The notes under the pieces were generated by a model, which worked only from the letters and a program-made list of their open reading frames with translations, was not told the origin of the DNA and did not search any database. From contig CAIKOL010000346.1 in assembly GCA_903829085.1 (NCBI GenBank), forward strand, positions 1 through 45,220: 45,220 nucleotides of DNA, written 5' to 3'. Of this stretch, positions 2,614 through 34,127 are shown one piece after another (positions within the stretch are counted from its first letter, which is position 1; the number at the start of each line of letters is the position of its first letter). Origin of the DNA: an uncultured Anaerolineales bacterium. Its GTDB lineage: Bacteria > Chloroflexota > Anaerolineae > Anaerolineales > Villigracilaceae. The position numbers and the translations under genes are program-made.

Positions 2614-2765
2614 TTTAAACACGCTTTTCACAAAGTTGGGGTTTGGGACAACCTGGTTTTCTTGCTTTGTGAAAGTTGTGCTAATTTAAAAAATCGGGCT
2701 TGACGCTCACCAGCTTCACCGATATAATCAGCCCGCTTAATCGGAATCATATAAAGGAGTAAGGA

Positions 2766-2963: not shown

Positions 2964-2965
2964 GA

Positions 2966-2992
2966 AAGGGGCCGTGAATTCCACGGCCTTTC
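2966..2992 (+). terminator. Hairpin downstream of rpmF
   Basis: GGCCGTG-aattc-CACGGCC stem with flanking aaagg/ccttt extension; weak T tract. Confidence 0.7.
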
Positions 2993-2994
2993 AA

Positions 2995-3150
2995 TTAAAT
3001 AAATGGATGACCTGGTCGGCAGGTTCTTCCAAACCGGGAAAGGCGAAAATTTCGGCAGCGCGCTGGAAGAGTTGGTGCGCTGCTTCTTTATTTTCTATCG
3101 CTGCCAGCCTGGCTCGCCTTCAGACTCTTTCCGCAAAAAAAACCGCTTTC
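2995..3150 (-). pseudogene. Possible decayed C-terminal gene fragment
   Basis: The reverse strand reads ...RARLAAIENKEAAHQLFQRAAEIFAFPGLEEPADQVIHLFN then stop, protein-like but interrupted by a stop/frameshift upstream and without a start. Confidence 0.3.
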
Positions 3151-3287
3151 CCCCCTTTATTGAGATGATACCTCAATATTATGAAAAAGATATGACACCT
3201 GACCATACAGGAGAGCGGCAACTAAATTATAATTCGTTGAACGATTGTTAGTTCTTGTTCGAGAAGTGGTTGTAGTTTGCCAAAAGA

Positions 3288-11629: not shown

Positions 11630-11648
11630 CACGTTGAGGGAACTTCAC

Positions 11649-14252
11649 ATGCCAAAGAGTCAAATGAATATTCAACTTAAAGAGATGGGCCAACTAACAG
11701 GAGTATGCTGGGCAGCATGGCTTGAACGTACGAGTGAATGGGAACTGCTCGCAGCATATAAAGTAAATCACCCCCAGCAAACCATTCTCATGAAATTTGT
11801 TCAACAACCCTCTGTGAAGATCTGGTTGGATGGGGCTATACCCGGGAATCGAAGTCGGTCCCGTCTTATCACTGAGAAGTTGGATCTGATGGGACGGAAA
11901 TTGTATGTGTTCCCAGATCAGGCAACTCAACGGGTTATCTTGGTTGGTGCAAATGAACTTTCGGATGCAATGCGGCGGTTCTGGAGAGTGATTGCATTAG
12001 TGGATTCAAGTCGTTCATTATTTGATGCAGGGCATGTTCAGGTTCCAGTAAACATCGAATCGGTACCCTATCATTTACCAAGGGCGCTTGATCGTATCCT
12101 TGGGCTAATTTTACAAACTTCCACATGCCAGGGAGGCTGGCTGGCGGTTCGCTCCGGAGATTACCTCGAGATCAAGGCGCATTCAAACTGCGCGGAGTGC
12201 CAGGATGTACGCTTCTCCATCGATGCAAACCCGCTTATGCGTGAATTGATTCAATCCCGGAAGGCTCGTATCTTACGGAATATTGATCCAGAGTGGGTGA
12301 TGACACCGCGAGTGGGATTTTCACTTTCTACACAGTCATGGATTGGCCTTCCGCTGGTCATTGGGCAAAGGTTGATTGGACTTGTGGCATTATGGAGTGA
12401 GAATTCCTTACAACCGGCAGAATTGGAAAAACTAAAACAACTGGCTGGGAAATTATCCCCTTCTGTTGAAGGTAGCATTACATTTGCTGACCTGTCTAAT
12501 CATTTACATCGGATGGCATTACTGAATGATTTTGCTGTTACAGTCTCATCTTCTTTGGATCTGGAGCAAATTGTTCAAAGAACCTTTGCGTTGTTACGCC
12601 GCGCTTTCAGTACGGAGCGGATCAACCTGATTGTCATCTCCTCGGATGGTAGCGGAGTTCAGAATTATTTTGACCAGCAGGGGATGATTATTGTTCAAAC
12701 GATGTCAAATGCACTGCTTCCGTGGCTGGTTGAAAAGGGGGATGTCTATCGCGCCGATTCGATTACATCAGAATCGCCATATAAACCAGTTTACCCCGGC
12801 TCGCTCTCTGCTTTGGTAATTCCGTTGAAATATCGAAAACAGGTTATCGGCGCATTGGGTTTGGAGAATGTAAAAGCAGGAGCATTTACTGTATACGATG
12901 AACATTTGCTGGTGGTGATAGCCAGTTATTTGGCAGGTTTGTTGGAAAACGGACGGTTACGGCGGGAAGCAGAAGCACGGGCGCGCAATCTAAGTCTGAT
13001 CCACGAAGTTGTTGAGCAAGTTATTGGTCTGACAGATGTCCGTCAGGTCGCCCAAATCGCTGCAGAATTAATGGCGCGGAACTTCGAATATGAACTTGCT
13101 GGAGTTGGACTGGTGGTAGGTCCCGAAAAGGAATTACAGCTAGCTGGGATTGGTGGAAATGCAGCCGACTTGGTACAACACGGGCTCACGTATATGAATG
13201 AAACTCGTGAAAATGGAATTGTATTACGCGTAGTTGCCACCGGTCAAAGTATACTTGTCAATGATGTCAGTCAGGACCCTGTCTACCTTCCCATTCCGGA
13301 TTGGGATGCCGGTTCTGAAATGTGTGTAGCCTTAAAAGACGGTGAGCAGATTCTGGGTATTGTGGATGTTGAAAGTCGACGGAAAAATGCATTCTCGCAA
13401 AACGATTTGCTTGTACTGGAATCACTCGCCGGTATCCTTGCTAGTGTGATTTCCAATGTTGGGCAGTACCAAAAACTCCAGGAAACGGTTAATCAACTCC
13501 GGACAACACGGGAGGAACTTCAAGAGCGTATTGCTGCGCAGCATGTTGCGGAAAGCCGGCTTATACAAGCCGCCAAATTAGCGGCAGTTGGCGAAATGGC
13601 AGCAGGGATTGCCCACGAGCTAAATAACCCATTGACAACCGTTTCGGGCTTTACTGAATTGTCCCTGGAAGAATTGCCAAACGATTCTCCGCTACATAAA
13701 GACCTTGAACTAGTACTGCGCGAAGCCCACCGGGCACGCGATGTAGTACGTCGTTTACTTGATTTTTCGCGTCAAAGCGAGAGTGTGAGAGCTCGTTCTG
13801 ACATGAACGAAATAGTTATGGATGTGTTGGCGTTGGTGAATCACTTGTTACACACGAGCGGCGTACAGATCTTTACTGATCTTTCTATTGGACTTCCATG
13901 GGTTTTGGTAGATCATAACCAGGTTAAGCAAGTAATCCTTAATCTGATTCACAATGCATTGCATGCCATGCCGAATGGTGGTGAATTACATATCAAGACT
14001 GAACACCTTCGCCGCGACCAACGCGATTGGTTGACAATTGCTATAACTGATTCAGGAATAGGAATCTCGCCGGAAAATCTGGAACGGATTTTTGAGCCGT
14101 TTTTTACCACGCATGCGAAAGATGGCGGCACAGGACTTGGTCTCTCAGTTTCCTATGGAATAGTTGCAGAACACGGTGGTTTTATCGAGGCAGAGAGTAA
14201 AATTGGCCAGGGTTCAATTTTTACGGTCTGGTTTCCGGTTGAGGCGGATTGA
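11649..14252 (+). CDS. Multi-GAF sensor histidine kinase (NtrB-like HisKA plus HATPase_c)
   Basis: AAGIAHELNNPLTTVSGFTEL, NLIHNALHAMPNGGEL, DSGIGISPENLERIFEPFFTT and GTGLGLSVSYGIVAEHGG; upstream GAF-like blocks. The ORF track starts at TTG 11634, but ATG 11649 follows a plausible RBS. Confidence 0.88.
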   Translation: MPKSQMNIQLKEMGQLTGVCWAAWLERTSEWELLAAYKVNHPQQTILMKFVQQPSVKIWLDGAIPGNRSRSRLITEKLDLMGRKLYVFPDQATQRVILVGANELSDAMRRFWRVIALVDSSRSLFDAGHVQVPVNIESVPYHLPRALDRILGLILQTSTCQGGWLAVRSGDYLEIKAHSNCAECQDVRFSIDANPLMRELIQSRKARILRNIDPEWVMTPRVGFSLSTQSWIGLPLVIGQRLIGLVALWSENSLQPAELEKLKQLAGKLSPSVEGSITFADLSNHLHRMALLNDFAVTVSSSLDLEQIVQRTFALLRRAFSTERINLIVISSDGSGVQNYFDQQGMIIVQTMSNALLPWLVEKGDVYRADSITSESPYKPVYPGSLSALVIPLKYRKQVIGALGLENVKAGAFTVYDEHLLVVIASYLAGLLENGRLRREAEARARNLSLIHEVVEQVIGLTDVRQVAQIAAELMARNFEYELAGVGLVVGPEKELQLAGIGGNAADLVQHGLTYMNETRENGIVLRVVATGQSILVNDVSQDPVYLPIPDWDAGSEMCVALKDGEQILGIVDVESRRKNAFSQNDLLVLESLAGILASVISNVGQYQKLQETVNQLRTTREELQERIAAQHVAESRLIQAAKLAAVGEMAAGIAHELNNPLTTVSGFTELSLEELPNDSPLHKDLELVLREAHRARDVVRRLLDFSRQSESVRARSDMNEIVMDVLALVNHLLHTSGVQIFTDLSIGLPWVLVDHNQVKQVILNLIHNALHAMPNGGELHIKTEHLRRDQRDWLTIAITDSGIGISPENLERIFEPFFTTHAKDGGTGLGLSVSYGIVAEHGGFIEAESKIGQGSIFTVWFPVEAD

Positions 14253-15844
14253 TGGCAGAAACGCGAATATTGGTTGTAGACGATGAACCCGGTATCACCC
14301 TATTATGCGAGCGGCTGCTTGTGCGGGCGGATTATGGGGTAACCTCTTTTACCGATCCAAAAGAGGCATTAAGTTATGTTGAACATAACAAATTTGATTT
14401 GTTATTGGTTGACATTCGCATGCCGGAAATTAGCGGTTTTGACCTCATTTTCCAGGTAAAACAATTCCAACCGGACACAGCTGTATTGGTCATGACTGGT
14501 TTTGGAACGGTTGAGACCGCCATCCAGGCACTCCGTCAGGGTGTGGATGGCCTGTTGCTAAAACCTTTTAAAACAGGTGAAGAACTGGTGCAGGCTGTCC
14601 GGCAGGCCTTGGATGATAACCAGAAAAAAAGAGACATAGCCCGTATTCAAGCGTTGCGTCCGCTTTTTGATATTACAGAAACGTTGTTGGCTGAAACTCG
14701 TCCAGAACGTCTTGTCGAGCTTGTTGTAATTGCAATTTGCGGACACCTTCGTTGTAATAACGCTGGATTTTATAAGTATTCTGCCAATGAAAATTCCTTG
14801 ATCCTACAGTCTGGGCGCGGAATTACATTAACAGGAAACATTAGCGCAGCTGGTAGTGGGATGGTTGGCCGTACCGATGCTTTCGGAATCCCATTCTGGG
14901 TAAACGCTGGCGGTCCTGGCGATGAAGGCCTCCAGAGTGACCTGATGGTTTTGGGATTAAGCTCCGCTTTTTGTGCGCCAATCTCCCGTCAAAATGTACA
15001 TGGGGTATTGTATGCTGGAAGAAATACGGACGTTGCACCGTTTCGCGAAGTGGACTGGGAGATGTTCCTCCTGATGGCACGACAGGCTGCTGTTGCCATG
15101 GAGAATGCAGTTCTTTATGAAGAATTGCGCGAATATGTCCGCCGTGTAGAAGGATCGCAGCAAGCACTAATTCGCGCTGAAAAAATGGCTGCAGCAGGCC
15201 GACTGACTGCATCCATTGCTCACGAAATCAATAATCCATTGCAGTCATTACAGAATTGTTTGCATTTGGCTACTCGTAGAGAGGTTCCAGCGAAGAAACA
15301 GCGTGAATATATAGATTTGGCGAATCATGAATTAATTCGCTTAATGAACACTGTTCAGCGTATGTTGGATTTCTACCGCCCCGGAGCTGTAGACCCGCAG
15401 CAAGTGAATCTGGAAATTCTGTTACGAAGGGTGATTAAATTACTTACACCGCAATTGAAGGCGCACGCAATCCATATCAGCACAGGGTTTTCGTCCAAGT
15501 TGCCCATGATAATGGCAGTGAGCAGCCAGTTGGAACAAGTCTTCATAAATCTCATCTTGAATGCCTACGATGCCATGCCAGACGGGGGTGATTTGCGAAT
15601 TAGCGCACGCCAGATACTGGACAATGTTGAAATATTCGTTCAAGATTCAGGTCCCGGAGTCAAAGAAGAGAACCGCAGTCACATTTTTGAGCCGTTTGTC
15701 AGTACGAAAGAAGGTGGGACTGGACTTGGATTATCCGTGAGCTATGGAATTATCGCAGCTCATGGCGGCAGCCTTGATCTTGTGACTGACCGCGGACCAG
15801 GCGCCTGCTTCCGAGTGACGTTACCGGTGAAGGGAGAATCATGA
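14252..15844 (+). CDS. Hybrid protein: N-terminal REC, GAF, HisKA, HATPase_c
   Basis: ILVVDDEPGITLLCERLL...LLLVDIRMPEISGFDL...LLLKPFK (REC); TASIAHEINNPLQSLQNCLHLA (H-box); GTGLGLSVSYGIIAAHGG. ATG at 14252 overlaps the previous stop. Confidence 0.9.
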   Translation: MAETRILVVDDEPGITLLCERLLVRADYGVTSFTDPKEALSYVEHNKFDLLLVDIRMPEISGFDLIFQVKQFQPDTAVLVMTGFGTVETAIQALRQGVDGLLLKPFKTGEELVQAVRQALDDNQKKRDIARIQALRPLFDITETLLAETRPERLVELVVIAICGHLRCNNAGFYKYSANENSLILQSGRGITLTGNISAAGSGMVGRTDAFGIPFWVNAGGPGDEGLQSDLMVLGLSSAFCAPISRQNVHGVLYAGRNTDVAPFREVDWEMFLLMARQAAVAMENAVLYEELREYVRRVEGSQQALIRAEKMAAAGRLTASIAHEINNPLQSLQNCLHLATRREVPAKKQREYIDLANHELIRLMNTVQRMLDFYRPGAVDPQQVNLEILLRRVIKLLTPQLKAHAIHISTGFSSKLPMIMAVSSQLEQVFINLILNAYDAMPDGGDLRISARQILDNVEIFVQDSGPGVKEENRSHIFEPFVSTKEGGTGLGLSVSYGIIAAHGGSLDLVTDRGPGACFRVTLPVKGES

Positions 15845-16578
15845 CAGCTAAAGCTAATATTCTTGTTGTGGATGATGAGCCAATAGAACGACAAACATTA
15901 TCAGAAATACTTCGGTTGGAAGGATACCATGTTGCTGCTGTGGCAAATGGAGAGGCAGCGGTGGATTATCTACGTTTAAATACGATCGATTTGATCCTAC
16001 TTGATTTACGCATGCCAGGAATGAGTGGCCTGGACGTGATAAAGGTGGTCAACCGAACATTGCCAGAAGTAGAAATTATTTTATTTACCGCCCATGGGTC
16101 TATGGAATCAGCGATTGAAGCATTGCGCAATCGCGTCCAGGATTATTTACTTAAACCAGCTTCACCATCTCAAATCCTGGATAGTGTTGCGCGTGGCCTT
16201 GCTCGGCGGATGGACAGAATGCAATCAAAAGAAAGCCAGGAAATTACGTCAGATACCAATCTTCATGCCATCGTTGCCATGGGGGATGGCACAATGATTG
16301 ATTTCGGCCGAAGACTTGTGCGATCTGGCTCTCAAACCGTTTTTTTGACTCCTGCAGAAGGAAGGTTACTAAGGATATTTGCTGAAAATATAGGGAAAGT
16401 ATTCACACATCGGGAATTAGTGCTTCTTGTTCAAGGCTACTCGACTTCGCAGCAGGAAGCCCCAGAAATACTCCGCCCGCTGGTAAGCAGATTACGACAA
16501 AAGTTAGCTGGTGTTCCTGGACTAATGCGGCGGATTGTAAGTGTGCGAGGGACCGGGTATGTATTTGAGAACGAGTAA
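15841..16578 (+). CDS. Response regulator, REC plus OmpR/PhoB-type winged helix
   Basis: ILVVDDEPIERQTL...LILLDLRMPGMSG...YLLKPASP; C-terminal LTPAEGRLLRIFAENIGKVFTHREL...VSRLRQKLAGVPGLMRRIVSVRGTGYVFE. Confidence 0.9.
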   Translation: MTAKANILVVDDEPIERQTLSEILRLEGYHVAAVANGEAAVDYLRLNTIDLILLDLRMPGMSGLDVIKVVNRTLPEVEIILFTAHGSMESAIEALRNRVQDYLLKPASPSQILDSVARGLARRMDRMQSKESQEITSDTNLHAIVAMGDGTMIDFGRRLVRSGSQTVFLTPAEGRLLRIFAENIGKVFTHRELVLLVQGYSTSQQEAPEILRPLVSRLRQKLAGVPGLMRRIVSVRGTGYVFENE

Positions 16579-16760: not shown

Positions 16761-17717
16761 CTAATCACGTGGTACCCAGGGAAGATCTGGGGGAATTTCC
16801 GGCGGACGCAACCAGCCAAGCAGTCCTTGCATCCTCCTTTTTTCGGGTTTTATTTTTTCAAAACCAATCAGGAGAAGACTTATCCCCAAGAGAGCAGCGC
16901 CAATCCATTGGACGACTTGCAGGTTTTCATGAAGCCATAAGTGACCCACGGTGATGGATACAAGTAATTCACCAAGACCAAGGAGAGCTGTCTGCAAACC
17001 GCCAAGTTTTTTTATTCCCAAGAAGAGGGTCAAGCGGGAGAAGAGAGTGACAATCGTTAACAGTATCACAGGGGTCCAGGATGTACCAATAGGTTGCGGT
17101 TGTTGATTGAAGAGAAAATAGACTGGAACGACGACTGCGCTCATTGCCAGGAGTGTATACAAGGTCACTGTGGGCGCCGGGATATCGTACAGGACACGCT
17201 GATTGATGGGTAAATGGATGGCATACATTGCGGATGCACCCAGCATTAACCCGACACCAATCCAATCCACATGGCTGGAATTGAAGGATGTTAGGAAGAT
17301 TACCCCCAGAAGCGCCAGTCCAATACGAATATAAGTGAGTTTTGAAGGTAGCTGGTGGTCAATTATTAACCAGAGAACAAGAAAAACCGGGTAAAGAGAA
17401 TAAAGTAATTGACCTACACTAACGCTTAGCCGGCCGAGGGCCAGATAATAGAACAAAGATCCTATCCCATTGATGGCACCTGCCAACGCACAACCAATGA
17501 TTCCCACTGGATAGATGAATAAGTATGATCGGCGGAAGATGGCTACTAGTATTAAGAGAATCCCCGCGGCCATACTGGTACGGAGGGCAACAACCGCCAG
17601 CGGAGAAAAGCCAGAGATGATGGCTTGCTTTCCGAAAATAGGGATCATGCCAAGGAACAATGGAGATACCAGCGCAGCTTGAATCCCAGTAACCTGGCCT
17701 CTTTTTTTGTTTATCAA
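16761..17717 (-). CDS. EamA/DMT-superfamily permease (10-TM type)
   Basis: Repeated hydrophobic segments; EamA-like PIFGKQAIISGFSPLAVVALRTSMAAGILL. Confidence 0.85.
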   Translation of the reverse strand: MINKKRGQVTGIQAALVSPLFLGMIPIFGKQAIISGFSPLAVVALRTSMAAGILLILVAIFRRSYLFIYPVGIIGCALAGAINGIGSLFYYLALGRLSVSVGQLLYSLYPVFLVLWLIIDHQLPSKLTYIRIGLALLGVIFLTSFNSSHVDWIGVGLMLGASAMYAIHLPINQRVLYDIPAPTVTLYTLLAMSAVVVPVYFLFNQQPQPIGTSWTPVILLTIVTLFSRLTLFLGIKKLGGLQTALLGLGELLVSITVGHLWLHENLQVVQWIGAALLGISLLLIGFEKIKPEKRRMQGLLGWLRPPEIPPDLPWVPRD

Positions 17718-17739: not shown

Positions 17740-19416
17740 TCAGCGGATGAGTGAATTTACCTCTTCCAAGAATTCATCGTTTAAAAAGTCTCCCTTTTGT
17801 AAAAGAGCCTGAATCTGACCTTTAAGTTTTTCTTTTTCTTCAACAGTTAATTCTTTGGCAGTAGAAACAATTACAGGTATGCTCGCAGTGTCAGGAGATG
17901 ATTTTAATGCATCCAGAACAGCAAACCCATCCATCTCTGGCATCATAAGATCCAGAATGATCAGGTCGGGAAGTTCGTTCTTTATTAATTTGAGAGCTTG
18001 TTTACCACTCTCAGCTTCTTGAATGGTGAAATTTCCTTGAGATTGAAGGATGCGGCGGATGAGACGTCGGGCATCCGGGCTATCATCCACCAGGACAACA
18101 TGCGGGAAGCGGTCGGGAGCTACGCGACTGAGGGCTGCCAGCAGGCCCTCTTGGGGGGTCTCTTCCATCATTCTGGAGGGGAGGACAACATTACGAGCCC
18201 AGTTGTCTCCTAAGATAAAGGGTTCCGTGGGCATGGTGTGCCCGGTGCAGTTGACCACCACCACGTCTGTAGGTTTAATTATCCCAGCTCGAATCAGTTT
18301 AAATAATCCCGCAAAAGCCACGGCTGCGGCTGGTTCGGCAGAAATACCTTCCATTTTTGCCAGCACATGCAAGGCGCGGAATGCTTCCTCGTCGCTGACA
18401 CTTTCGAAAATTCCATGGGAATCGTATACTTTCCTAAAAAGTAAAGTATATGCTCTGCCAGGATCGCCAGTTGCTAATGTTTCAATGTGCGTACGGGGTG
18501 ATGAGACTGGAGTAGCAATCTCAGAATGTTCTTTCCAGGCATTTACCATTGGCGCACAGCCTTCAACTTGAATAGCAGCAATGGCAGGGATTCGATCAAC
18601 CAAGTTCATCTTCTTTAGTTCGCTAAAGCCTTTACTGATCCCTAAAGGTCCCATTCCGCCGCTGACAGACTGAATGTACCAATCTGGTGTTCGCCAAATG
18701 GGATGAGACTTACCATTGGTGTTATAAGCCGATCCCATCAGGGTGGTCAACTGCTCGGCAATCTCAAAAGCAATAGTTTTCATGGCTTCGATGGAAGTGA
18801 TCGTTCTTGCTCCCATGTCCAGGTAAAGATTCCTCTGGCGTGCAAATTCTGCGGCTACCTGTTTGGCCTGGTCATAAGAACCGGTCACTTTGACAACCTG
18901 GCTGCCGTAGATGGCAATCTCGCGCATTTTGACAGCTGGAACCAGGCTGGTGACAAATGCCCATAATTTGATGCCGGCACGAGCGGCATAAGCAGAGTAT
19001 GAGATAGCAACATTGCCAGTCGAGGCGGCAACCATTTCTGTTATTCCAGCTTCTTTAAGAGCGGCGATGGTTACAGCAGCTTGACGATCTTTGAACGACG
19101 CTGTAGGGCCTTGGCGCTCATCTTTGATGAAGATGTTTGGGCATCCGAGCATCATTCCAAGATTCACTGCTTGGATGAGGGGAGTACCTCCTTCTCCAAG
19201 CATTATCGCTGGATTGGGATTGCGTACCGGAAGTAGTTCGCGGTAACGCCAAAGATCAAAAAGTCGCCCTGGTAGTTGAAGCGGAAGGCTCTTAGAGACT
19301 GTTGCCAAATCATACTCAGCCTCACGCCACTGGCTATTGCAGCGTGGGCAATTCATTGAAGTAGGATAATATGGAGTGGTATGGCTGCAATCGAGACAGC
19401 GGACTACGAAGGACAT
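17740..19416 (-). CDS. Threonine-synthase-like PLP enzyme with C-terminal response-regulator receiver (REC) domain
   Basis: N-terminal zinc ribbon (CLDC...CPRC), LGEGGTPLIQA, GPTASFKDRQAAV PLP lysine, AASTGNVAISYSAYAARAG, VSGGMGPLGI; then FPHVVLVDDSPDARRLI...LIILDLMMPEMDGF...IPVIVSTAKEL...LLQKGDF (REC, about 17740..18108). Confidence 0.92.
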   Translation of the reverse strand: MSFVVRCLDCSHTTPYYPTSMNCPRCNSQWREAEYDLATVSKSLPLQLPGRLFDLWRYRELLPVRNPNPAIMLGEGGTPLIQAVNLGMMLGCPNIFIKDERQGPTASFKDRQAAVTIAALKEAGITEMVAASTGNVAISYSAYAARAGIKLWAFVTSLVPAVKMREIAIYGSQVVKVTGSYDQAKQVAAEFARQRNLYLDMGARTITSIEAMKTIAFEIAEQLTTLMGSAYNTNGKSHPIWRTPDWYIQSVSGGMGPLGISKGFSELKKMNLVDRIPAIAAIQVEGCAPMVNAWKEHSEIATPVSSPRTHIETLATGDPGRAYTLLFRKVYDSHGIFESVSDEEAFRALHVLAKMEGISAEPAAAVAFAGLFKLIRAGIIKPTDVVVVNCTGHTMPTEPFILGDNWARNVVLPSRMMEETPQEGLLAALSRVAPDRFPHVVLVDDSPDARRLIRRILQSQGNFTIQEAESGKQALKLIKNELPDLIILDLMMPEMDGFAVLDALKSSPDTASIPVIVSTAKELTVEEKEKLKGQIQALLQKGDFLNDEFLEEVNSLIR

Positions 19417-19433: not shown

Positions 19434-22400
19434 CTAGGGTTTAATATGTCTTAATGCTCGTTCCAGTAGAGCCAGAAGTTCACTTTCATTCAGAGAACCT
19501 TTTCGGAGTAGCTTCTGGCCAAAATCTTTCAATTGTGCTTGTTGTTCGCCTGTAAGGTCTGCTCCACTGACAACGATAACTGGAATGTCATTTAATTCTG
19601 AAGTGGTACGTAACTTTTCCAGGATGGTAAAGCCATCCATATCGGGCATGAACAGGTCGAGAATAACCGCATGTGGAGGATTCTTCGAAAGAATTTCCCA
19701 ACCCTGACGCCCACCTTCCGCCAGGATTGGAGTGAATTGGCCCTGTTGAAGGATTTTTCCGTAGAGGCGCAAATCTTTGGGGTCGTCATCAATCACAAGG
19801 ACATTATGAATTTCACCCTCAGCGTTTAACTTGTTGAGGGAGTTAAGCAAATCATCCTCAAGGATTGGTTTGACCAGGTAATCAGCTGCACCTAAACTAA
19901 ACCCTTTTTCTTCTTCTTCCAGAATGCTGCAAACTAGAACTGGAATATCACGTGTGGTGGAATCTTTTTTAAGCTCTGCAAGCACAGTCCAACCATCCCG
20001 CCCTGGCATCATGATATCAAGCGTGATGGCATAAGGTTTGAGTTGGCGTGCACGCTCGACAGCTTGTAATGGATCGGTCAAGCCAACAACTTGAAAACCT
20101 TGTGGTTGGAGGTAGCGTTCATATAACGCAATGACCTGGGTATCATCGTCGATGGCAAGAATGATTTTCTCTTCAGTCGCTCCTTCGAGCCCTGCTTTAT
20201 TCTCCTTTATTTTTGGAAGAGGCAGGGTGAAATAGAAGGTGCTGCCTTTATCGATCTCACTTACAACATCGATCAACCCGCCGTGTAATTCAATCAGGCG
20301 GCGGGATATGGATAACCCGAGACCTGTCCCACCGGTCTTGCGGGTAGGCGTGGAATCAACTTGTGAGAACGGCTGGAACAGTTTTTTCTGATCAATCAGT
20401 GAGATTCCAGAGCCAGTATCAATTACTTTGACAACAACATCTGACTGTCCATCTTTTTCCGTTTCCAAACTTGCCGTCACGGTAATCGTACCTTCCTCAG
20501 TAAATTTCGCAGCATTAGAAAGCAAGTTGATCAAAACCTGGCGCAGACGCATGGCATCTGCGCGAATAATAGGGATATTAGGCGCGATATCCAGATTAAT
20601 CTTAATGGGTTTTTCTTTTACGAGCCCTGATGCAGTTGGAATTACGCTTTGGAGTAGTTCAGCAATATTGACATCATCGAAGGACAATTCCATCTTGCCT
20701 GCATCAATCTTGGAGCTGTCGAGGATGTCGTTAATTAGGCGCAGTAAATGCTGGCCTGAATTATAAATTGCTGTGAGATCCTGATCCTGGAGGTCTGTGA
20801 TGGGACCATCAATCCCTTTAAGGATGACGCGTGAGAACCCGATGATGGAATTAAGTGGTGTCCGAAGTTCATGACTCATATTTGCCAGGAATTGACTCTT
20901 GAGCCGATCCAGTTCGCGCATTTCGTTGATGGCTTGTTGTGCAAGTTCATACGAACGGGCGTTATCGATGGCAACAGCTACCTGGTCAGCCAGTGTCTGC
21001 AAAACAGCAATATCATCGGGTGCGAAAGCATCCACTTCCTTGGATTGAAGGTCAAGCGCACCAACCGTTCGTTTGCCAATGTGCAGCGGAATGGCAGCCT
21101 CCGAACGTGTGTCCGGGAGCAGAGGGTTTGGGCGGTGAATTGGATCAATTGTAGTATTGTTTACGACCAACGGAGTTCCTGTCGAAGTGACAGTACCCAC
21201 AATGGAGCGTGAACCTACTTGTAGAGCGTGTTTACGTCGCAGCATTTCTTCACCGGCAGCACCGGTTGCAGATTTCAAGACAGTATTAAAACCAGTTTCT
21301 TCTGTATTGAATATCGCCACATGATAGAAACCGAAACGTTCGCGGATGAGGCTCACAGTCCGCGAGAAGAGCGTATCCAGGTCTAGGGTTGAAGTGACCA
21401 GCCGGCCAATTTCAGAAGAAGTCGCCAGATATTCATTTTGCCGGCGAAGCGTTTCTTCAAAATTTCGGCGTTCTGTAACATCTCTGGCAACCCAGTAAAC
21501 CTGGTTTTCGTTCAGTTTGGAAATACTTGCATCAAACCAATAAGTCCTATTTTCAAGAACGAGAGGATATTCAAGTTTGTTGACTTCTCCCGTTTCAAGG
21601 GTTGCATGAATGGCGCCCAAAAATGGTTCGTGAGTTTCGGGTGGTAGAACATCGACGATTCTCTTGCCTAGCATATCGTCAGGTGGTTTGAACAATCGGG
21701 AAGGATTTGTAGGAGCAACGCGAACGTAGCGACCTTCATTATCATAAACGATAATCACATCTGTCATCGATGTGAACAGGGCGCGCAATTCAAGCTCAGA
21801 TTGTTTCCGCTCAATGGCTACGGCAACCTGGTTGGCGACAAACGCGAGCGTATCACGGTCACGATTGGTCAAGCGAACATTCTGCTGATAGGTCTGGATC
21901 GCCAGAACTCCAATTACATGTTCGCCACTGCGCAATGGAACTCCCAACCAATCAATACCAATTGTGCCGCTTCCTTCCACATCCCCATTTTTTATCATTA
22001 GTGCATATATTTCTGGGGTGGCAAGTAAGGGCTTACCGCTACGCAAGACAAAACTGGTGAGATTCTTTCCTAGGCTCGCTGGAGGCAAGGGTTCGTCGTG
22101 TTCGTCAATATAGTATGGGAAACTCATTATGTCGGTCTTGTCATCGTATGTGGCTACGTAGAAGTTATCAGCCGGCATAAGTGTTTCTATGGATTGTTGA
22201 ATACTGCGCATCAAGGTTGTTATGTCGGGCGCAACCAGCGCAGCTTCTGAAATTGTACGGATGGCTTCCTGAACGCTTTCAGCAAATTTGCGTTGTGTAA
22301 TGTCTTTATCCATACCACGGTAACCGGTTCGGTTGCCGTTTGCATCGAGAACGGGTACTGCACTGGTTGCAATATAAATAGAATGGCCGTCTTTCGCTCG

Positions 22401-25109
22401 AAGCATTTTCTCAATATCAATTGCCTGGCCACTATTTTCGATTCCTTGCAGCAGCAATTCGGTAACCCGCACGGTCTCTTTGGGGTCGGCCAATTGATCA
22501 GCTGAAAATCCCAACATTTCTTCAGGTGTGTAGCCAAGGACATCTTTGACCCGCTCGGATAAATAGGTGTATTGCCAGTCCAGGTTGGTTTCCCAGATGT
22601 AGTCTGCGCTAACTGAAACTACATCCCGGAAGCGAGATTCGGAAGAGCGGATCTGATCGAACAATCGGGCGTTTTGAATGGCAATCGATGCTTGGTTTGC
22701 AATCGCTATGAGCAATTGCTGGTCATGCTCCGTATAGGCATTTGGTTCATGGTATGCTTGAACAGCCATTACCCCAAGGATAGTGTCGCTGATCAGGAGT
22801 GGCACCCCCAGCCAGGATCTCGCAGGTTCACCGACGCTTTGCATTCCATGAGCTAATAGCCAACCTTCAACGCCATCTGTAATAAGCACTGTGTCATGAG
22901 TTCGGATGATATACCCTGTGATCCCTTGCCCTGCCGGGAGCCGCGAAATTTCCTTGTCAATTTTCGATTCAGTGACGTTAAGCTGAAAAACATTCTCGTT
23001 TCTTTCGGCATCGAATAGGGCAATATAAAAGTTTGTCGTATCAATCAAGCGGGAAACTCCGCTATAAACTTCAGCCAATACCTGGTTGAGATCAATATGG
23101 GATGCCAACGCTCTGCCAAGATCGTTAAGCGCAGCCGTTTCCTCGGCGCGTATCTGTGTTTGCTGGAATAGATTGGCGTTTTCAATTGCAAACCCAATTT
23201 GACGACCAATCGTGCGTGTCAGTTCGATTATGTGCTCCGGGAAAGGTCTGGGGGTTTGATTAAAAGTACACAGGGTGCCCAACACCCGCCCGCGGGCTTC
23301 CAGAGGCACCCCGAGGTAGGCTTGAAGGCCATTCGACAACATCGCATCGACGTCTATCGGGGCACCTCGGTTTAAATCTTCAATTGCTAAATAGTTCTTT
23401 GATAAATAGACTTCCTCACAAAGTGTTCCACCCAATCCGGATTTTTCTGCGAACTTCCTTAATGAATCTGGTAATCCCCGGATACTGGCAAGTTCCAGTC
23501 TCTGACTATCCTGGTTAAACATACTAATAAGACCACCCCCCTGACCTAACAATACCAGCACCTGAGCCAGGACTTCATCCAGAATATTCTGCAAATCCAG
23601 TGTGCGGCTTGCAGAACTGATAATTTGATTTAAAGCTCCCAATTCTTCATTGCGGGAAGTTGTCTCCACGAACAAGCGGGCATTTTGAATTGCGATGGAA
23701 GCCTGACCAGCGATGGAGGTCATCAAACTACGGGTATGGAAGTCGAAAGCAAATGGATCATCGTAACTTTCAATCCCAATTACCCCAATAGGATGATTAC
23801 CGAGAAGCATCGGTACACCCAGCCAACATTTCGATTCTGAGCCAACAATGTCAAGACCAAGAGCTTGTATTTTTTGAACCGTAAAGTCTTCGATAAGCAA
23901 GGGCTCGCCATGGCGGATGATATATTCGGTAAGTCCATTTCCTGCTTTCCTTGATGAGAAGCTGATTTGTTCTCCTTTCTCATACAGGAGGGGGAAACTG
24001 ACCATGTCATGCGCTGCATCGTATAGAGAAATGTAAAAACTTCTTGTATCCAGCAGGCGAGACGCAAATTGGTGAATATATTCGACAATACCTTTTATAT
24101 CAAGCGTTCCGGACAGGGCACGTGCCATTTCGTTCAAAACTGCCAGCTCCTGGGCGCGGTTTTCAGACTGCTGAAACAGGCGTGCGTTTTCAAGAGCAAT
24201 TGCTGCCTGGTTGCTAATGGTTCTAATTAACTCAAAGTCATGGTCTGAAAAGAGTTTGGAAGATTGGATGCTTTGAAGAACAATCGCACCAAGAGTGCGA
24301 CTTCCCAGTACCAATGGGACACCGAGCCAGCAAAGGGCGGGTTTGTCACTGCCAATTGCGACAAACTCTATTCCCAATTGTTCCATGGCAGCAGGAACAT
24401 TTTCTGGAATGAAAAGAGGTTGGTTGGAACGCAAAACGTAATCGGTAAGCCCATTTCTCAACGGGCGGGCAGGTGCGGAATCCCGAATGCCATCGTTGAT
24501 CGTAATGGGGAATGAAATGAGTTGTGTTTCCTGTTCATATTGGGCGATAAAGAAGTTTGTGGTGTCCATCAGCCGAGATGTAAACCGGTAAACCGTGTCG
24601 GCAATATTTGAAACATCCAATTGGGTAGAAAGTTCACGGCCCATTTCGTTAAGAAGTGTCAACTCCTGGGCCTGGCGCTGGGTTTGTTGGAACAAGCGGG
24701 CATTTTCCAATGCAAGTGAGAGCTGGTCCGTAACTTGCTGGATTAGCAATTGTTCTTCTTCACTCCAATGCCGTTCTGTAGATGGGTTGGCTACTTCAAT
24801 CGCGGCCCAGGACTCGGAATCGATACGAAAGGGTGTCGTAAGAATATTTAATGCCGGGCTTGAGAAACTTTGGGGGTGCGCATCTGGGGTAAGAGGCTGG
24901 GTACCCATTTCGAATTCCGAATGCTGGGAAATGGAAGGATCGCCGACGGAATGGGCCAGCTTCTGATCTGGAATGCTTCTTCTGGTTTCCGGCTTGATGT
25001 CAGACGTTACTTCTATCTTGCGTTGATCAGGAGTAGTGTCTTCGGCTTGTTTAATATCTATAAAGAGTTTGTCAAGCCGTTTCTGTATTCGTTTGCTGGA
25101 CATATTCAA
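19434..25109 (-). CDS. Giant hybrid histidine kinase: N-terminal half-GAF, about 6 GAF, 2 PAS, HisKA, HATPase_c, 2 REC
   Basis: 1891 aa; several NARLFQQ...LNEMGRELS...LDV GAF boundaries; PAS (SRFRDVVSVSADYIWETNLDWQYTYLSERVKDVLGYTPEEML); FLANMSHELRTPLNSIIGFSRVIL; GTGLGLSISRRLIELHGG; two REC (ILAIDDD...LDIMMPGRDGW; VLVIDDD...LDLFMPDMDGF). A start at Met 25103 is equally possible. Confidence 0.93.
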   Translation of the reverse strand: MNMSSKRIQKRLDKLFIDIKQAEDTTPDQRKIEVTSDIKPETRRSIPDQKLAHSVGDPSISQHSEFEMGTQPLTPDAHPQSFSSPALNILTTPFRIDSESWAAIEVANPSTERHWSEEEQLLIQQVTDQLSLALENARLFQQTQRQAQELTLLNEMGRELSTQLDVSNIADTVYRFTSRLMDTTNFFIAQYEQETQLISFPITINDGIRDSAPARPLRNGLTDYVLRSNQPLFIPENVPAAMEQLGIEFVAIGSDKPALCWLGVPLVLGSRTLGAIVLQSIQSSKLFSDHDFELIRTISNQAAIALENARLFQQSENRAQELAVLNEMARALSGTLDIKGIVEYIHQFASRLLDTRSFYISLYDAAHDMVSFPLLYEKGEQISFSSRKAGNGLTEYIIRHGEPLLIEDFTVQKIQALGLDIVGSESKCWLGVPMLLGNHPIGVIGIESYDDPFAFDFHTRSLMTSIAGQASIAIQNARLFVETTSRNEELGALNQIISSASRTLDLQNILDEVLAQVLVLLGQGGGLISMFNQDSQRLELASIRGLPDSLRKFAEKSGLGGTLCEEVYLSKNYLAIEDLNRGAPIDVDAMLSNGLQAYLGVPLEARGRVLGTLCTFNQTPRPFPEHIIELTRTIGRQIGFAIENANLFQQTQIRAEETAALNDLGRALASHIDLNQVLAEVYSGVSRLIDTTNFYIALFDAERNENVFQLNVTESKIDKEISRLPAGQGITGYIIRTHDTVLITDGVEGWLLAHGMQSVGEPARSWLGVPLLISDTILGVMAVQAYHEPNAYTEHDQQLLIAIANQASIAIQNARLFDQIRSSESRFRDVVSVSADYIWETNLDWQYTYLSERVKDVLGYTPEEMLGFSADQLADPKETVRVTELLLQGIENSGQAIDIEKMLRAKDGHSIYIATSAVPVLDANGNRTGYRGMDKDITQRKFAESVQEAIRTISEAALVAPDITTLMRSIQQSIETLMPADNFYVATYDDKTDIMSFPYYIDEHDEPLPPASLGKNLTSFVLRSGKPLLATPEIYALMIKNGDVEGSGTIGIDWLGVPLRSGEHVIGVLAIQTYQQNVRLTNRDRDTLAFVANQVAVAIERKQSELELRALFTSMTDVIIVYDNEGRYVRVAPTNPSRLFKPPDDMLGKRIVDVLPPETHEPFLGAIHATLETGEVNKLEYPLVLENRTYWFDASISKLNENQVYWVARDVTERRNFEETLRRQNEYLATSSEIGRLVTSTLDLDTLFSRTVSLIRERFGFYHVAIFNTEETGFNTVLKSATGAAGEEMLRRKHALQVGSRSIVGTVTSTGTPLVVNNTTIDPIHRPNPLLPDTRSEAAIPLHIGKRTVGALDLQSKEVDAFAPDDIAVLQTLADQVAVAIDNARSYELAQQAINEMRELDRLKSQFLANMSHELRTPLNSIIGFSRVILKGIDGPITDLQDQDLTAIYNSGQHLLRLINDILDSSKIDAGKMELSFDDVNIAELLQSVIPTASGLVKEKPIKINLDIAPNIPIIRADAMRLRQVLINLLSNAAKFTEEGTITVTASLETEKDGQSDVVVKVIDTGSGISLIDQKKLFQPFSQVDSTPTRKTGGTGLGLSISRRLIELHGGLIDVVSEIDKGSTFYFTLPLPKIKENKAGLEGATEEKIILAIDDDTQVIALYERYLQPQGFQVVGLTDPLQAVERARQLKPYAITLDIMMPGRDGWTVLAELKKDSTTRDIPVLVCSILEEEEKGFSLGAADYLVKPILEDDLLNSLNKLNAEGEIHNVLVIDDDPKDLRLYGKILQQGQFTPILAEGGRQGWEILSKNPPHAVILDLFMPDMDGFTILEKLRTTSELNDIPVIVVSGADLTGEQQAQLKDFGQKLLRKGSLNESELLALLERALRHIKP

Positions 25110-25857
25110 TCAGCTCCTCAGCCAGACTGCGATACTGTTGTGCGCCACGACTGGTGGGTTTATATTGGGTGATGGGCAGACCAAGGATCGGACTTTCGCG
25201 CAATTTTGTATCGATTTCAATGATGGTTTTAAAGATACCGACTCCGAAAGCACGGTCTAATTGATCATGAATATCGCGGTGGGTGCGGTTCCGTTGGTCT
25301 AGTAAGGTGACTAGTATACGATAAGCAAGATTAGGATTTTCATCAGCACGAACTTGGCGGATGATTGTCATCATGTCACGGAGGGCATAAGCCGAGAAAT
25401 ATTCAGCCTGGGTTGGGATGATAAGCAGATTGGCAGCGGTGATCGCGTTGATTGTAATGGCTCCCAACGATGGGGGGCAATCAATTAGGATGAATTGGTA
25501 AGGCAGAGGATTTACTGCATCAATCGCAGTTCGTAATCGGGAAGTGTAATTCAGATAAACGGGCATCATCTGTTCTGCCTGTTCAAGTCGATTGCTTGCT
25601 GGAATAATGTCAAGATTGGGAAAATTCGTCGCAAGGCATGAATCCATCACTGGGGATGTGTCCATAAGAATACTTGCGGAATTATTTGTATCCTTTCCTG
25701 GCTCAAACCCAAGAGCAAGAGTCAGGTTGGCTTGCGGGTCCAGGTCAATGAGCAGCACCTTTTGACCGGCCTCGGCGAGCGTTGCTCCCAAGTTTAACGC
25801 AGTGGTAGTCTTTGCCACCCCGCCTTTTTCATTGGATATTGCGATAGTATAGAACAT
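25072..25857 (-). CDS. ParA/Soj-family ATPase (orphan, no ParB adjacent)
   Basis: ISNEKGGVAKTTTALNLG deviant Walker A, LLIDLDPQANLTLALG, FILIDCPPSLGAITINAITAANLLIIPTQAEYFSAYAL; overlaps the start of the giant kinase by 38 nt. Confidence 0.93.
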   Translation of the reverse strand: MFYTIAISNEKGGVAKTTTALNLGATLAEAGQKVLLIDLDPQANLTLALGFEPGKDTNNSASILMDTSPVMDSCLATNFPNLDIIPASNRLEQAEQMMPVYLNYTSRLRTAIDAVNPLPYQFILIDCPPSLGAITINAITAANLLIIPTQAEYFSAYALRDMMTIIRQVRADENPNLAYRILVTLLDQRNRTHRDIHDQLDRAFGVGIFKTIIEIDTKLRESPILGLPITQYKPTSRGAQQYRSLAEELIEYVQQTNTETA

Positions 25858-25883: not shown

Positions 25884-28427
25884 TTAATTTTCGGCTTTTC
25901 GATTTTTTTTATTTGGCGTACCATGTGTTTTAATGGCTTGGTTCACTGGCAGGGTTACATAAGGCCGGATCCGAATTTCGTCTGTTCCGAGTACTTTCTT
26001 TAGTTCTTCGATCGCTGTTGTGAGCATGGTTTGTGGGTCGGTTGTGGTACGAATTTTTGAAGTGATATCAGAAACCGTGCGTTCGCGGTTGGCCTGCCGT
26101 GTGGTTTCTTCAAATAACCGCGCATTTTCAGCTGCAAGGGCCACTCGATCTGCAACAGCGTTGACCAAGTCGATTTGCTCTTGACTCCAAGAATGACCTG
26201 ACGGCAACTGTACAATGAGATTCCCAATAGTCTCGCCTCGCAACGAAATTGGGACCGAAAGAGAATTCGATGCCGATTTTTGTTTTTTGTGTTCACTTTC
26301 GGGAGTGTTCGACAACTGAAGAGGAGCCTCAATAGGTTGGGCACTTGTTCCAGAGTAACGGAATCCAATCAAATTCTGTTCGCTAGGCAAACGGCTCCAG
26401 GTCTGGTGCGAATATTGGCGAGAAAGGGCTTCAGCCTCTGCAAGTGAACGTCGTGTTGTATCAAACAAACGAGCATTATCGATAGCAAGGCTGACTTGGT
26501 CAGCAAGAATAGCAAGTACTTTTATGTCTTCGTCGGAGAAAGCGTTTGTCTGGAGGCTCTGAACATCCAGCACACCAACAGTTCGCGCACCAATCTGTAA
26601 AGGAAGCGCCATTTCAGCGCTGGTTTCAGGTAGATCGGGGTTATTGAAGTAGGCTGCATCATCTCCTACATTACGAGCAATGCGTATTGTTCCTGATGCG
26701 GCGACGCGCCCAACAATCCCTTGTTCTCCGATCATAAGGCGATGACCGCGATTTAACATTCTACGCCCTCCCTCGCTATTGGCAGCGCTAAGGATGGCAT
26801 ATTGATTGCTTTCATCATTTAGAAAAATACCAACATGGTAATAATTAAACTGCTCGCTTATTAGCGTGGTTATTCGAGGCAGGAGTTCTTCGGTTTTACG
26901 GATTGAATTGATTGCTTGTGTGATCAGTGCGACAACTTCAAGTTGGGAAGCACGCCGCTCTGCATGGCGAGATTCGGCTTCTAATTCGGAAGTTCGTTCA
27001 GCAACTCTATCTTCCAAAGATTGGATATTTTCCCTTAAGGTAGTGGTCATGACATTCAGTGTCTTAGCAAGCGTCCCGATTTCATCCTTACTTTGTACTT
27101 GTATTTTCGCATCAAGGTCACCGTTCGTGATTTCTTGTGCTGTCCTGGTTAATGCTGTTAATGGATTAGTTAATCCATTACTAATTAATAGCGTTGCAAG
27201 TATGGCAATTACCAAGATCCCCGCTACCAAGAATATACTTTGAGTTACCGTATTCCTTGTCACTTGGGCGATTTGCTCTTTAGCGAGGATGGATTCTGCA
27301 AGCATTTCACTGGAAGGAACAATGATAGCCAAGCCATAATCTACTTCAGGGATTGGCTGATAAACGATAAATCGATCTACCCCGCCGATTGATATTGTAT
27401 CCAAACCACTCTCGCCCGATGCTATTTTCGCTAGCAATATATAAAAATTCGAAGGAACATTCTTAATTGTTGACTGATAAAATAATGCACCAAGTGGAGT
27501 TGTTGAAGGCGATAAACCAAAATCCTTGTAACCTGAATCGGGCATCGCGACCAATCGTTCGTTCTTATCGATTAGAAAAGCATAGCCTGTTTCGCCAACA
27601 TGGATATTGGAAACTAAACCTGTAATCCTGTTAAGCTGAATATCCATGGCTACAACGCCAGCGAAATTTCCTCCGGAGTCGTATACGGGGGAACTGGCCG
27701 TTACAACCAATCCATGCAGAGCTGCATCGAGGTATGGGTCAGACCATACAGCTGTGCGTCCCGGATTTGATATTGGCGCAGCTTTGACGAACCACGGGCG
27801 CGTGGTCACATCGAAATCGGGCGGTACAAGTGATGCCAAGTCGACATTGGGGTAATAGAGCGTTTCACCAGATGTACCACCGAAGTACATGGCAACTGTG
27901 TCTGAATTTTTAGCAAGGATCGAAGGTACTAGGAAATCCAATTGTCTGATTGTATTTAACTCTGACACTAAACGATAGGATAAATCAATTTTGGCAGGTA
28001 TAAAAATTGAGGCCGGGTCTGTGTTTGAATTATCCCAACTTCCATTTGGTAAACGAACCAATGATTGAGTGGCATCCCAGTAATTTCCATTGCTGAAAAT
28101 CATCTCGTGGGAAAGTAAATTCTCGGTGGTGTCACCGACTGTAATAATGTTGTCTTTTATCGACGCGAAGAAATTATTAAGAACAAGTGCTTGTTCTACG
28201 CTTGTCGAGGTTAATTTCTCTTCTGCCTGCTGTTGGACGTTTGTATCCAATTGAGTGGTCAAATAGGTGCTTTCTTGCTGGGAACGAAGAAAAACATAAT
28301 ATCCTGTTCCTATAATTGCAATAAATGCAATTAATATGTTTCCCAGGATCAACTTGGTTCGGAGGGTAATCGATCCAAGTGATAGCCGTTTTGAGAAAAA
28401 CGATCTTTTGGGTAATGGAATTTTCAT
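25884..28427 (-). CDS. Membrane receptor: dCache-like sensor, TM, HAMP, GAF, degenerate GAF, C-terminal half-GAF tail; no kinase domain
   Basis: DVTTRPWFVKAAPISNPGRTAVWSDPYLDAALHGLVVTASSPVYD...GVVAMDIQL (Cache-type); LTNPLTALTRTAQEITNGDLDAKIQVQSKDEIGTLAKTLNVMT (HAMP); YYHVGIFLNDESNQYAILSAANSEGGRRMLNRGHRL (GAF). Confidence 0.88.
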   Translation of the reverse strand: MKIPLPKRSFFSKRLSLGSITLRTKLILGNILIAFIAIIGTGYYVFLRSQQESTYLTTQLDTNVQQQAEEKLTSTSVEQALVLNNFFASIKDNIITVGDTTENLLSHEMIFSNGNYWDATQSLVRLPNGSWDNSNTDPASIFIPAKIDLSYRLVSELNTIRQLDFLVPSILAKNSDTVAMYFGGTSGETLYYPNVDLASLVPPDFDVTTRPWFVKAAPISNPGRTAVWSDPYLDAALHGLVVTASSPVYDSGGNFAGVVAMDIQLNRITGLVSNIHVGETGYAFLIDKNERLVAMPDSGYKDFGLSPSTTPLGALFYQSTIKNVPSNFYILLAKIASGESGLDTISIGGVDRFIVYQPIPEVDYGLAIIVPSSEMLAESILAKEQIAQVTRNTVTQSIFLVAGILVIAILATLLISNGLTNPLTALTRTAQEITNGDLDAKIQVQSKDEIGTLAKTLNVMTTTLRENIQSLEDRVAERTSELEAESRHAERRASQLEVVALITQAINSIRKTEELLPRITTLISEQFNYYHVGIFLNDESNQYAILSAANSEGGRRMLNRGHRLMIGEQGIVGRVAASGTIRIARNVGDDAAYFNNPDLPETSAEMALPLQIGARTVGVLDVQSLQTNAFSDEDIKVLAILADQVSLAIDNARLFDTTRRSLAEAEALSRQYSHQTWSRLPSEQNLIGFRYSGTSAQPIEAPLQLSNTPESEHKKQKSASNSLSVPISLRGETIGNLIVQLPSGHSWSQEQIDLVNAVADRVALAAENARLFEETTRQANRERTVSDITSKIRTTTDPQTMLTTAIEELKKVLGTDEIRIRPYVTLPVNQAIKTHGTPNKKNRKAEN

Positions 28428-28445
28428 AGTTATTTTTTCTTTTTA

Positions 28446-30341
28446 TTATTCTGCAGTCTTATCGTTACCTTGAAATTGGATAACTACTTCTGAGCCCGGG
28501 ATGACGCGGCCGAGTTCTTCGACAGCGGTCTGCAGTACGTTGCGCAGGTTAATAGAACCACCGACTTTTGAAGCAATTTCACCAATAACCGATTCAACTT
28601 CAGCACGTTTGCTGATCTGTTCATACAAACGGGCACTTTCCAGAGCTGAACCCAGTTGTTCTGAAAGGGTACCGGCGGCAGCAATTTCTTCCTCGGTCCA
28701 TTGACCTCTTCCTTGAGTTTTTTCCAAGCGGATGGTACCAATCACATCCTCGCGAACTTTGATGGGTAAATGGAGAGTGGTGTTGTCATTCGTCAGAATA
28801 GGTTTCCCAGATTTAATTACCATCAAGGATTCGGGACTGGCTTCATCCGTAATTGGAAATACTGAACGAGCAGCGCTAACAAATCCAATCTTTTCTGATT
28901 TCTCCTGCAAAAGTCGTTGCCAGCCAACACGACCAGCTTCACTATACGTTCGGCGAGTGGATTCGAGAGCGGCTTGAGTGCTGGCAAAAAGGCGGGTATT
29001 TTCAATGGCGATGGCAACCTGGTCAGCGAGAACCTTTAATATACTAACGTCTTCTTCCGTAAACGCCATTTCCTTTACACTTTGAACATCCAGTGCACCA
29101 AGGATCTTCCCACCAACAATGAGTGGCAATGCCATCTCGGAATGTGTCTCAGGAAGGTCGGGGTTATTGAAAAAGACTGCATCCTTTCCTACATCCAATG
29201 CGATACGAGCCTGCCCACTCCCAGTCACATAGCCGACGATACCAACCTGACCAACTTTCAACTTATGCCCCCGCGCCAACATACGCTGTCCGCCTTCGCT
29301 GTTCGTTGCACGTAAAACGGCGTTCTCTTCTGTATTGTCAAGCAAGAAAATACCTACATGATAGAATGCAAAACGCTGACTGATGAGGCGTGTTACCTGC
29401 CCAAGTAGTTCATCAAGATTGCGGATGCGGGTAACCGCCGCACCGATTTCTGCTGTAGCCTGCAATTGGGAAGCACGTCGCTCCAGAGCCTGTGTGCGCT
29501 CAGCAATCCGTTGTTCAAGGCTATCAATAAGAGAATGTAATTGGTCTGCCATTGAGTAAAAAGATTTGCCCAGTAACTTGAGTTCTGAACTTGGAAAACC
29601 TATATTTGGCCGGAAATCAAGTTCCCCTTCCGAAATGCGAACAGCAACCTGGGTCAATGTAGAGATTGGTGCAGCCAACCTATCGCCCAAGAACCATCCT
29701 GCCAATCCAACCAGTGGCAATGAAAATACGAAAATACCGATAAACCAATATAGAACTTGCCTTTCATTAGCAAGGATCTTATTCGCTGAAATGTCAACTC
29801 CGATGATACCTGCTAATTGGTTATCAGAAGTGTAAAAAGGGGCATAGGCTGAAAGGAAGGTTCCATATTCATCTGTATAAAAATCATTTTCAACCATCGG
29901 GTGATCCATGGTTGTAAAGTTAGCCGCTAGCACTGGCCCAGGAATATTATAGCGTTCGCCAAATGCAGACCCAAGCGGATCACCAGGTTCGACTGCGTCC
30001 ACCACAAAATAGAGACCTTGCGAGTCAAAACGCATCGTGTAGACGAAAGCTAAATCTGGATCCGAGCTACGAATTCGCAGATTCTGTAACCGTATCTGTT
30101 CAAATGCTGGATCGGATGATGAGTTAATACTTACAAACAAGTCACCATTTTGTTGGAGGGAAGCCAGGGAAACAATATTCAAAAGACGTTGGCGTAGATC
30201 GGTGCGGTCCTGCTGGCGATAGATTGTATAGCTTATTGTTAACGTTAGGCCAACAGCTAGAAATGCCAATAGTATAAAACTGAGAACCAGTCTCGACCGC
30301 AAACTTATTGTTCGCATGAATGGAGAATTTCGGGTTTTCAC
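28446..30341 (-). CDS. Membrane receptor: extracytoplasmic Cache-like sensor, TM, HAMP, GAF, degenerate GAF, half-GAF tail; no kinase domain
   Basis: N-terminal TM, periplasmic loop with FYTDEYGTFLSAYAPFYTSDNQLAGIIGVDIS, HAMP, FYHVGIFLLDNTEENAVLRATNSEGGQRMLARGHKLKVGQVGIVGYV. Confidence 0.87.
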   Translation of the reverse strand: MKTRNSPFMRTISLRSRLVLSFILLAFLAVGLTLTISYTIYRQQDRTDLRQRLLNIVSLASLQQNGDLFVSINSSSDPAFEQIRLQNLRIRSSDPDLAFVYTMRFDSQGLYFVVDAVEPGDPLGSAFGERYNIPGPVLAANFTTMDHPMVENDFYTDEYGTFLSAYAPFYTSDNQLAGIIGVDISANKILANERQVLYWFIGIFVFSLPLVGLAGWFLGDRLAAPISTLTQVAVRISEGELDFRPNIGFPSSELKLLGKSFYSMADQLHSLIDSLEQRIAERTQALERRASQLQATAEIGAAVTRIRNLDELLGQVTRLISQRFAFYHVGIFLLDNTEENAVLRATNSEGGQRMLARGHKLKVGQVGIVGYVTGSGQARIALDVGKDAVFFNNPDLPETHSEMALPLIVGGKILGALDVQSVKEMAFTEEDVSILKVLADQVAIAIENTRLFASTQAALESTRRTYSEAGRVGWQRLLQEKSEKIGFVSAARSVFPITDEASPESLMVIKSGKPILTNDNTTLHLPIKVREDVIGTIRLEKTQGRGQWTEEEIAAAGTLSEQLGSALESARLYEQISKRAEVESVIGEIASKVGGSINLRNVLQTAVEELGRVIPGSEVVIQFQGNDKTAE

Positions 30342-32056: not shown

Positions 32057-32091
32057 GTGCTTCGCCTCTGTATCAATGACGTTATGGAATT

Positions 32092-34107: not shown

Positions 34108-34127
34108 GGGCTACTCCTTTATACCGC

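Follow-up and report, generated by a model that had tools for sequence, protein, structure and literature searches.

The locus raises the question of whether a two-component signal can act directly on an enzyme of the threonine synthase type. The window, by which we mean the whole 45,220-nt stretch analyzed here, comes from a draft genome of an uncultured Anaerolineales bacterium (80% complete, 410 contigs) and contains a single open reading frame of 558 amino acids (17740 to 19416, minus strand). The frame has an ATG start at the 19416 side and a stop codon at 17740-17742, and translation of the plus strand over the same interval is full of stops. Pfam recognized two domains in the protein, PALP at residues 71-391 (215 bits, cut-off 35) and Response_reg at residues 440-541 (78 bits, cut-off 30). 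A preliminary description, made from the sequence alone, had proposed an in-frame fusion of a threonine-synthase-like PLP enzyme with a full receiver (REC) domain. This was borne out, and the strand, left unstated there, is the minus strand.

All features of the fusion are read from the minus strand. The enzyme part begins with a zinc ribbon (residues 7-26, positions 19339 to 19398), whose four cysteines (C7, C10, C23, and C26) were invariant in 57 of 57 aligned homologues. It is followed by a PLP-enzyme domain of fold type II (residues 71-391, 18244 to 19206), assigned from Pfam, matches to solved folds, and invariant PLP contacts, in which the PLP-lysine K109 lies in the motif SFKDR (19090-19092). 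A connector (residues 396-436, 18109 to 18231), delimited from conservation and an AF2 model, contains the short helix PQEGLLAAL and leads into the receiver (residues 437-558, 17743 to 18108). In the receiver, the phospho-acceptor D489 is part of the motif LDLMMP (17950-17952), and the other motif residues are the acidic pair DD at 444-445, T519, and K541. Every zinc-ribbon, PLP, and receiver motif claimed earlier was present, and the claimed sizes of about 436 residues for the enzyme part and 122 for the receiver matched the alignment boundaries.

The preliminary description had suggested searching for the threonine synthase plus Response_reg architecture elsewhere, and had regarded a stop codon between the domains as evidence against the fusion. 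Of 100 genomes sampled from the same GTDB family, 81 encode a full-length orthologue with 69-86% identity across both domains; these genomes span nearly all genera, and the frame was uninterrupted in them. A second full-length fusion paralogue (47-53% identity) was present in 39 genomes of the same sample of 100, both counts being taken among the matches listed. Across the phylum, a full-length match was obtained in 34 of the 301 genomes sampled, and these included other Chloroflexota classes. Furthermore, a full-length distant homologue is encoded in the finished genome of a cultured type strain, Herpetosiphon aurantiacus DSM 785, in which a segment of the second contig matched the DSM 785 plasmid CP000876 at 100% identity. 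With the same uninterrupted frame in so many members of the family and in one finished genome, an artifact of assembly or sequencing, including a frameshift, was ruled out. Outside Chloroflexota, one scan of named genomes with strict patterns returned REC matches only.

In a tree of the enzyme domain, all 57 fusion PALP domains formed one clade with modest support (0.86), on a long stem and apart from stand-alone homologues. Because the fusion domains are monophyletic on this stem, the tree indicates one old fusion event, followed by duplication. The receiver part varies in number: in some fusions from other Anaerolineae (L053, L056, L057, L058, and L138/L150) the PLP domain is followed by tandem double receivers, and four fusions in the REC tree had a second receiver.

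The phospho-site of the receiver is also well conserved. D445, D489, and K541 were kept in 57 of 57 aligned homologues, position 519 was threonine or serine in all 57, and position 444 was aspartate or glutamate; a degenerate receiver was ruled out by this conservation. In the REC tree, the receivers of the fusions clustered with the terminal receiver of the adjoining hybrid kinases (support 0.82, modest) and separately from the remaining receivers encoded there. The connector is also conserved, with G424, L425, A428, and L429 the same in at least 95% of homologues, which suggests that its helix is a coupling element, not a loose tether. The AF2 model, built with 57 homologues, had a mean pLDDT of 82.8 and a pTM of 0.70, with the enzyme core and the receiver well predicted. 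Its connector was uncertain (pLDDT below 50, low at 410-422, with a helix at 425-430), and at this connector pLDDT and pTM the model gives no trustworthy geometry between the domains.

The cofactor site of the PLP domain is equally intact. In Thermus threonine synthase, the PLP-binding residues are K61, N87, a phosphate loop, and T317. The corresponding contacts in the fusions, namely K109, N135, the SGG.G loop at 252-256, and a threonine or serine at 391, were kept in 57 of 57 homologues, with the phosphate loop differing from the GNAGN of the Thermus enzyme. A dead PLP domain was dismissed as the default, since the cofactor residues are invariant. Because the receiver quartet and the PLP contacts were both kept in all 57 homologues, both halves of the protein are under selection.

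The substrate site is different. T88, N154, S155, R160, and N188 of Thermus threonine synthase presumably hold the substrate phosphate, and the residue letters were confirmed at these numbers against the 1uim sequence. At these positions the fusions have V/A, mostly M/R, G, mostly S/A, and G, so that all five are replaced. In addition, Q112, G202, M212, S252, and H393 are fusion-specific pocket residues that were invariant across the fusions. Replacement of the substrate-phosphate positions together with an invariant pocket of their own suggests that the fusions share one conserved, different substrate. This argument is of only moderate weight, because a stand-alone protein of the PRK08197 type encoded in the same genome (C372) also departs at four of the five positions, keeping the arginine.

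By descent, as judged from its sequence, the fusion belongs to the threonine-synthase superfamily. The closest solved structures to the AF2 model were threonine synthases (target-normalized TM 0.84-0.88), and the best NCBIfam models for the window protein were also threonine synthases. It did not reach the cut-off of either, scoring 245 bits against 303 for PRK08197 and 153.7 against 167.1 for TIGR00260; two distant fusions narrowly exceeded the latter (168 and 189 bits against 167.1). Threonine synthases (EC 4.2.3.1; TIGR00260/PRK08197; PDB 2d1f, 6nmx, 2zsj, and 1uim) have the fold-type-II PLP core in common with the fusion at about 30% identity, including the PLP lysine, the asparagine, the phosphate loop, and the N1 threonine or serine, and the zinc ribbon is common to the fusion and the PRK08197-type homologue of its own genome. 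The fusion differs from them in its C-terminal receiver, its scores under the NCBIfam cut-offs, its replaced substrate-phosphate residues, and its separate long-stem clade. Cysteate synthase (TIGR03844; CapA2, PDB 9k3c) was matched by profile and fold as a member of the same superfamily, but it was rejected as an identification because the fusion scored only 102 bits against a cut-off of 324.9, and no receiver has been reported on that enzyme.

The genomic context bears on whether the fusion serves the cell as its threonine synthase. As the preliminary description had stated, the window contains no hom or thrB neighbors, which ruled out an ordinary threonine operon. Three further stand-alone threonine-synthase-like genes (C372, C23, and C81) are present in the same genome; that of C372 scored 580 bits, over the PRK08197 cut-off, and that of C23 was 7 bits over the TIGR00260 cut-off. 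Of the Anaerolineae genomes compared, four consist of a single contig, and in three of these thrB has a strong thrC (297-307 bits) directly beside it, far from the fusion; H. aurantiacus has a strong thrC (325 bits) elsewhere in its genome. Because of these strong thrC genes and the three homologues in its own genome, the fusion is probably not the ordinary threonine synthase of the cell. A role as the enzyme of threonine biosynthesis, as implied in the preliminary description, was not supported, in view of the sub-threshold profile scores, the five replaced substrate-phosphate residues, the three other homologues, and the thrC beside thrB in three relatives. A separate canonical threonine synthase elsewhere was one half of the counter-evidence named in that description, the other half being activity unaffected by REC phosphorylation, and the thrC next to thrB in complete relatives is such an enzyme.

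In the draft genome of the window, no thrB was found over the cut-off, and hom is on another contig. The cut-off of the homoserine kinase model TIGR00191 was exceeded in just two of the 11 genomes compared from the genus, although several are more than 90% complete, and an alternative homoserine kinase or a pathway gap is possible in this genus. The thrC-like gene of C372 (4463-5623, minus strand; L163) lies 9 nt upstream of a gene for a GAF-GAF-PAS histidine kinase (2384-4453, minus strand), so that the fusion is not the only threonine-synthase-like gene of this genome linked to a sensor kinase.

The fusion gene itself lies directly behind a gene for a hybrid histidine kinase of 1,891 amino acids (19434 to 25109, minus strand), in which Pfam identified six GAF domains, a PAS domain, HisKA with the H-box SHELRTPL, HATPase, and two C-terminal REC domains. 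The kinase frame ends at 19434, leaving exactly the 17-nt gap given in the preliminary description, and a Shine-Dalgarno-like stretch (AAAGGTGAG in the minus-strand reading) lies between the kinase stop and the fusion start. Of 45 fusion neighborhoods compared, 40 have a gene for a histidine kinase with the SHELRTPL H-box as the immediate upstream neighbor in the same orientation. By this arrangement, the fusion is predicted to be co-transcribed with the histidine kinase, and the adjoining hybrid kinase is its probable cognate kinase. The fusion thus has both the receiver residues and the histidine-kinase linkage by which a response regulator is recognized at the sequence level.

Other genes recur around this pair. 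An EamA-family permease (16761 to 17717, minus strand; Pfam EamA 81.6 bits) lies 22 nt downstream of the fusion and recurs there in 28 compared neighborhoods. Just upstream of the kinase is a gene for a ParA/Soj-like ATPase (25072 to 25857, minus strand; Pfam AAA_31), which was found in 20 neighborhoods. Beyond it is a row of six genes for GAF proteins (25884 to 39412, minus strand), of which some also have Cache or HAMP domains and none has a kinase domain by Pfam; related GAF proteins recur upstream in most compared fusion neighborhoods. The order of GAF row, ParA-like ATPase, and hybrid kinase is repeated in many related loci. At the upstream end of the GAF row are two adjoining single-receiver proteins (39476-39940 and 39943-40344, both minus strand). 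Downstream of the permease, a divergent set on the plus strand (11634-16578) encodes a GAF histidine kinase, a REC-GAF-kinase, and a regulator with REC and Trans_reg_C, and it is likewise seen in many related loci. In one related locus (L038), a separate frame of 249 amino acids between the kinase and the fusion encodes what are elsewhere the terminal two receivers of the hybrid kinase; either the gene is truly split there or the draft contains a frameshift.

The second paralogue has a different setting. In its clusters a kinase gene precedes the fusion, a gene for a single-receiver protein follows, and a PRK08197-type stand-alone threonine synthase often comes next. The kinase lacks a receiver domain both here and in H. 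aurantiacus, and therefore the fusion and the small REC protein would remain as phosphate acceptors. Counting PRK08197 genes that exceeded the cut-off, the second paralogue was 0.4-0.9 kb from such a gene in 19 of the 22 genomes holding both. This adjacency speaks for some link to threonine.

Considered as a whole, the locus is by its sequence a conserved two-component system with a PLP enzyme as its predicted output. Because the fusion gene is directly behind the gene for a sensor kinase, an external signal probably raises or lowers the activity of the enzyme directly. Our reading, to which we assign a probability of about 0.55, is that phosphorylation of the receiver by the kinase allosterically switches a neofunctionalized PLP enzyme. 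Gene order and the intact receiver suggest that the kinase, fed by its GAF and PAS sensors, would phosphorylate D489. With both domains in a single polypeptide and a conserved connector between them, the phosphorylated receiver could shift its position on the enzyme or its dimer and thereby change PLP-domain activity in cis. The retention of all cofactor contacts points to a catalytically active enzyme, presumably with a changed substrate. The fold type and the changed pocket are consistent with a beta- or gamma-elimination or replacement, in which the substrate would be an amino acid near to, and probably other than, O-phosphohomoserine.

The receiver could also sit on a true threonine synthase, a regulated isoenzyme that converts O-phosphohomoserine to threonine under direct phospho-control beside a housekeeping ThrC. 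This would fit the nearest solved folds and the best NCBIfam models, the two distant fusions just over the TIGR00260 cut-off, and the closeness of the second paralogue to a PRK08197 threonine synthase in those 19 of 22 genomes. It is made unlikely by the scores of the window protein under both cut-offs, the change of all five substrate-phosphate positions, and the strong thrC beside thrB elsewhere in three complete relatives. Moreover, the fusion is present even though thrB was not found over the cut-off in its own genome or in most of the genus, where the genomes are incomplete drafts.

Another alternative takes the PLP domain as a metabolite sensor or regulatory partner that binds an amino acid through PLP, with the receiver serving for docking, for phosphate relay, or as a phosphate sink; in one variant, the second-paralogue fusion could associate with the adjoining stand-alone ThrC and regulate it. 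That neighboring ThrC, the presence of several additional REC proteins in these operons, and the common subtype of the C-terminal receiver of the fusion and the terminal receiver of the hybrid kinase all speak for this explanation. The paralogue in the window (paralogue 1), however, has no ThrC neighbor, and conservation of the catalytic lysine, the O3' asparagine, the phosphate loop, and the N1 threonine or serine in 57 of 57 homologues exceeds the needs of pure binding, so we regard it as improbable. A chance product, whether a fusion in decay or two genes wrongly joined during sequencing or assembly, might be suspected in a window from an 80%-complete draft in 410 contigs, but the frame that runs uninterrupted through 81 of 100 family genomes and a finished type-strain genome, with both active sites invariant, reduces its probability almost to nothing.

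Response regulators with enzymatic outputs are known, for example CheB and PleD. The fusion resembles these in its full D/D/T-S/K receiver, the adjoining histidine-kinase gene, and an enzyme as output, and differs from them in that the output is a PLP-dependent amino acid enzyme of the threonine-synthase superfamily and the receiver is at the C-terminus. Attachment of receivers to standard metabolic enzymes has been observed repeatedly in bacteria, as noted in a census of archaeal systems (PMC5847659). The winged (extended) Arg/Lys/Orn decarboxylases are PLP enzymes of the AAT fold with an N-terminal receiver-like wing (PMC8503589). Like them, the fusion combines a PLP-dependent amino acid enzyme with a CheY-like receiver domain, but it is of fold type II (PALP), its receiver is C-terminal and keeps the phospho-site intact, and a kinase gene adjoins it. 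To our knowledge, the wing of the decarboxylases is not phosphorylated. A literature search, thin on subscription journals, found no report of a receiver fused to an enzyme of the threonine-synthase type. Receivers on metabolic enzymes are therefore known in general, and a threonine-synthase-type PLP enzyme as the output is apparently undescribed.

Direct two-component phospho-control of metabolic enzymes has been proposed from domain combinations and, as far as we know, little tested on amino acid metabolism. The old and conserved fusion, the probable kinase adjoining it, and the copy in the cultured H. aurantiacus DSM 785 make the question directly testable, and the interest of the system rests on its depth of conservation, its constant kinase partner, and this type-strain copy. 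In annotation, such proteins would be labeled "threonine synthase" or "response regulator" and are probably neither in the usual sense. As judged purely from gene order, the EamA permease may move the substrate or the product of the enzyme. A complete circuit, in which the kinase switches an amino-acid-making PLP enzyme of new specificity and the product leaves through the permease, is a decidedly speculative extension that we consider quite unlikely. If true, an external stimulus would lead to secretion of an amino-acid-type molecule without any step of gene regulation, across much of Chloroflexota.
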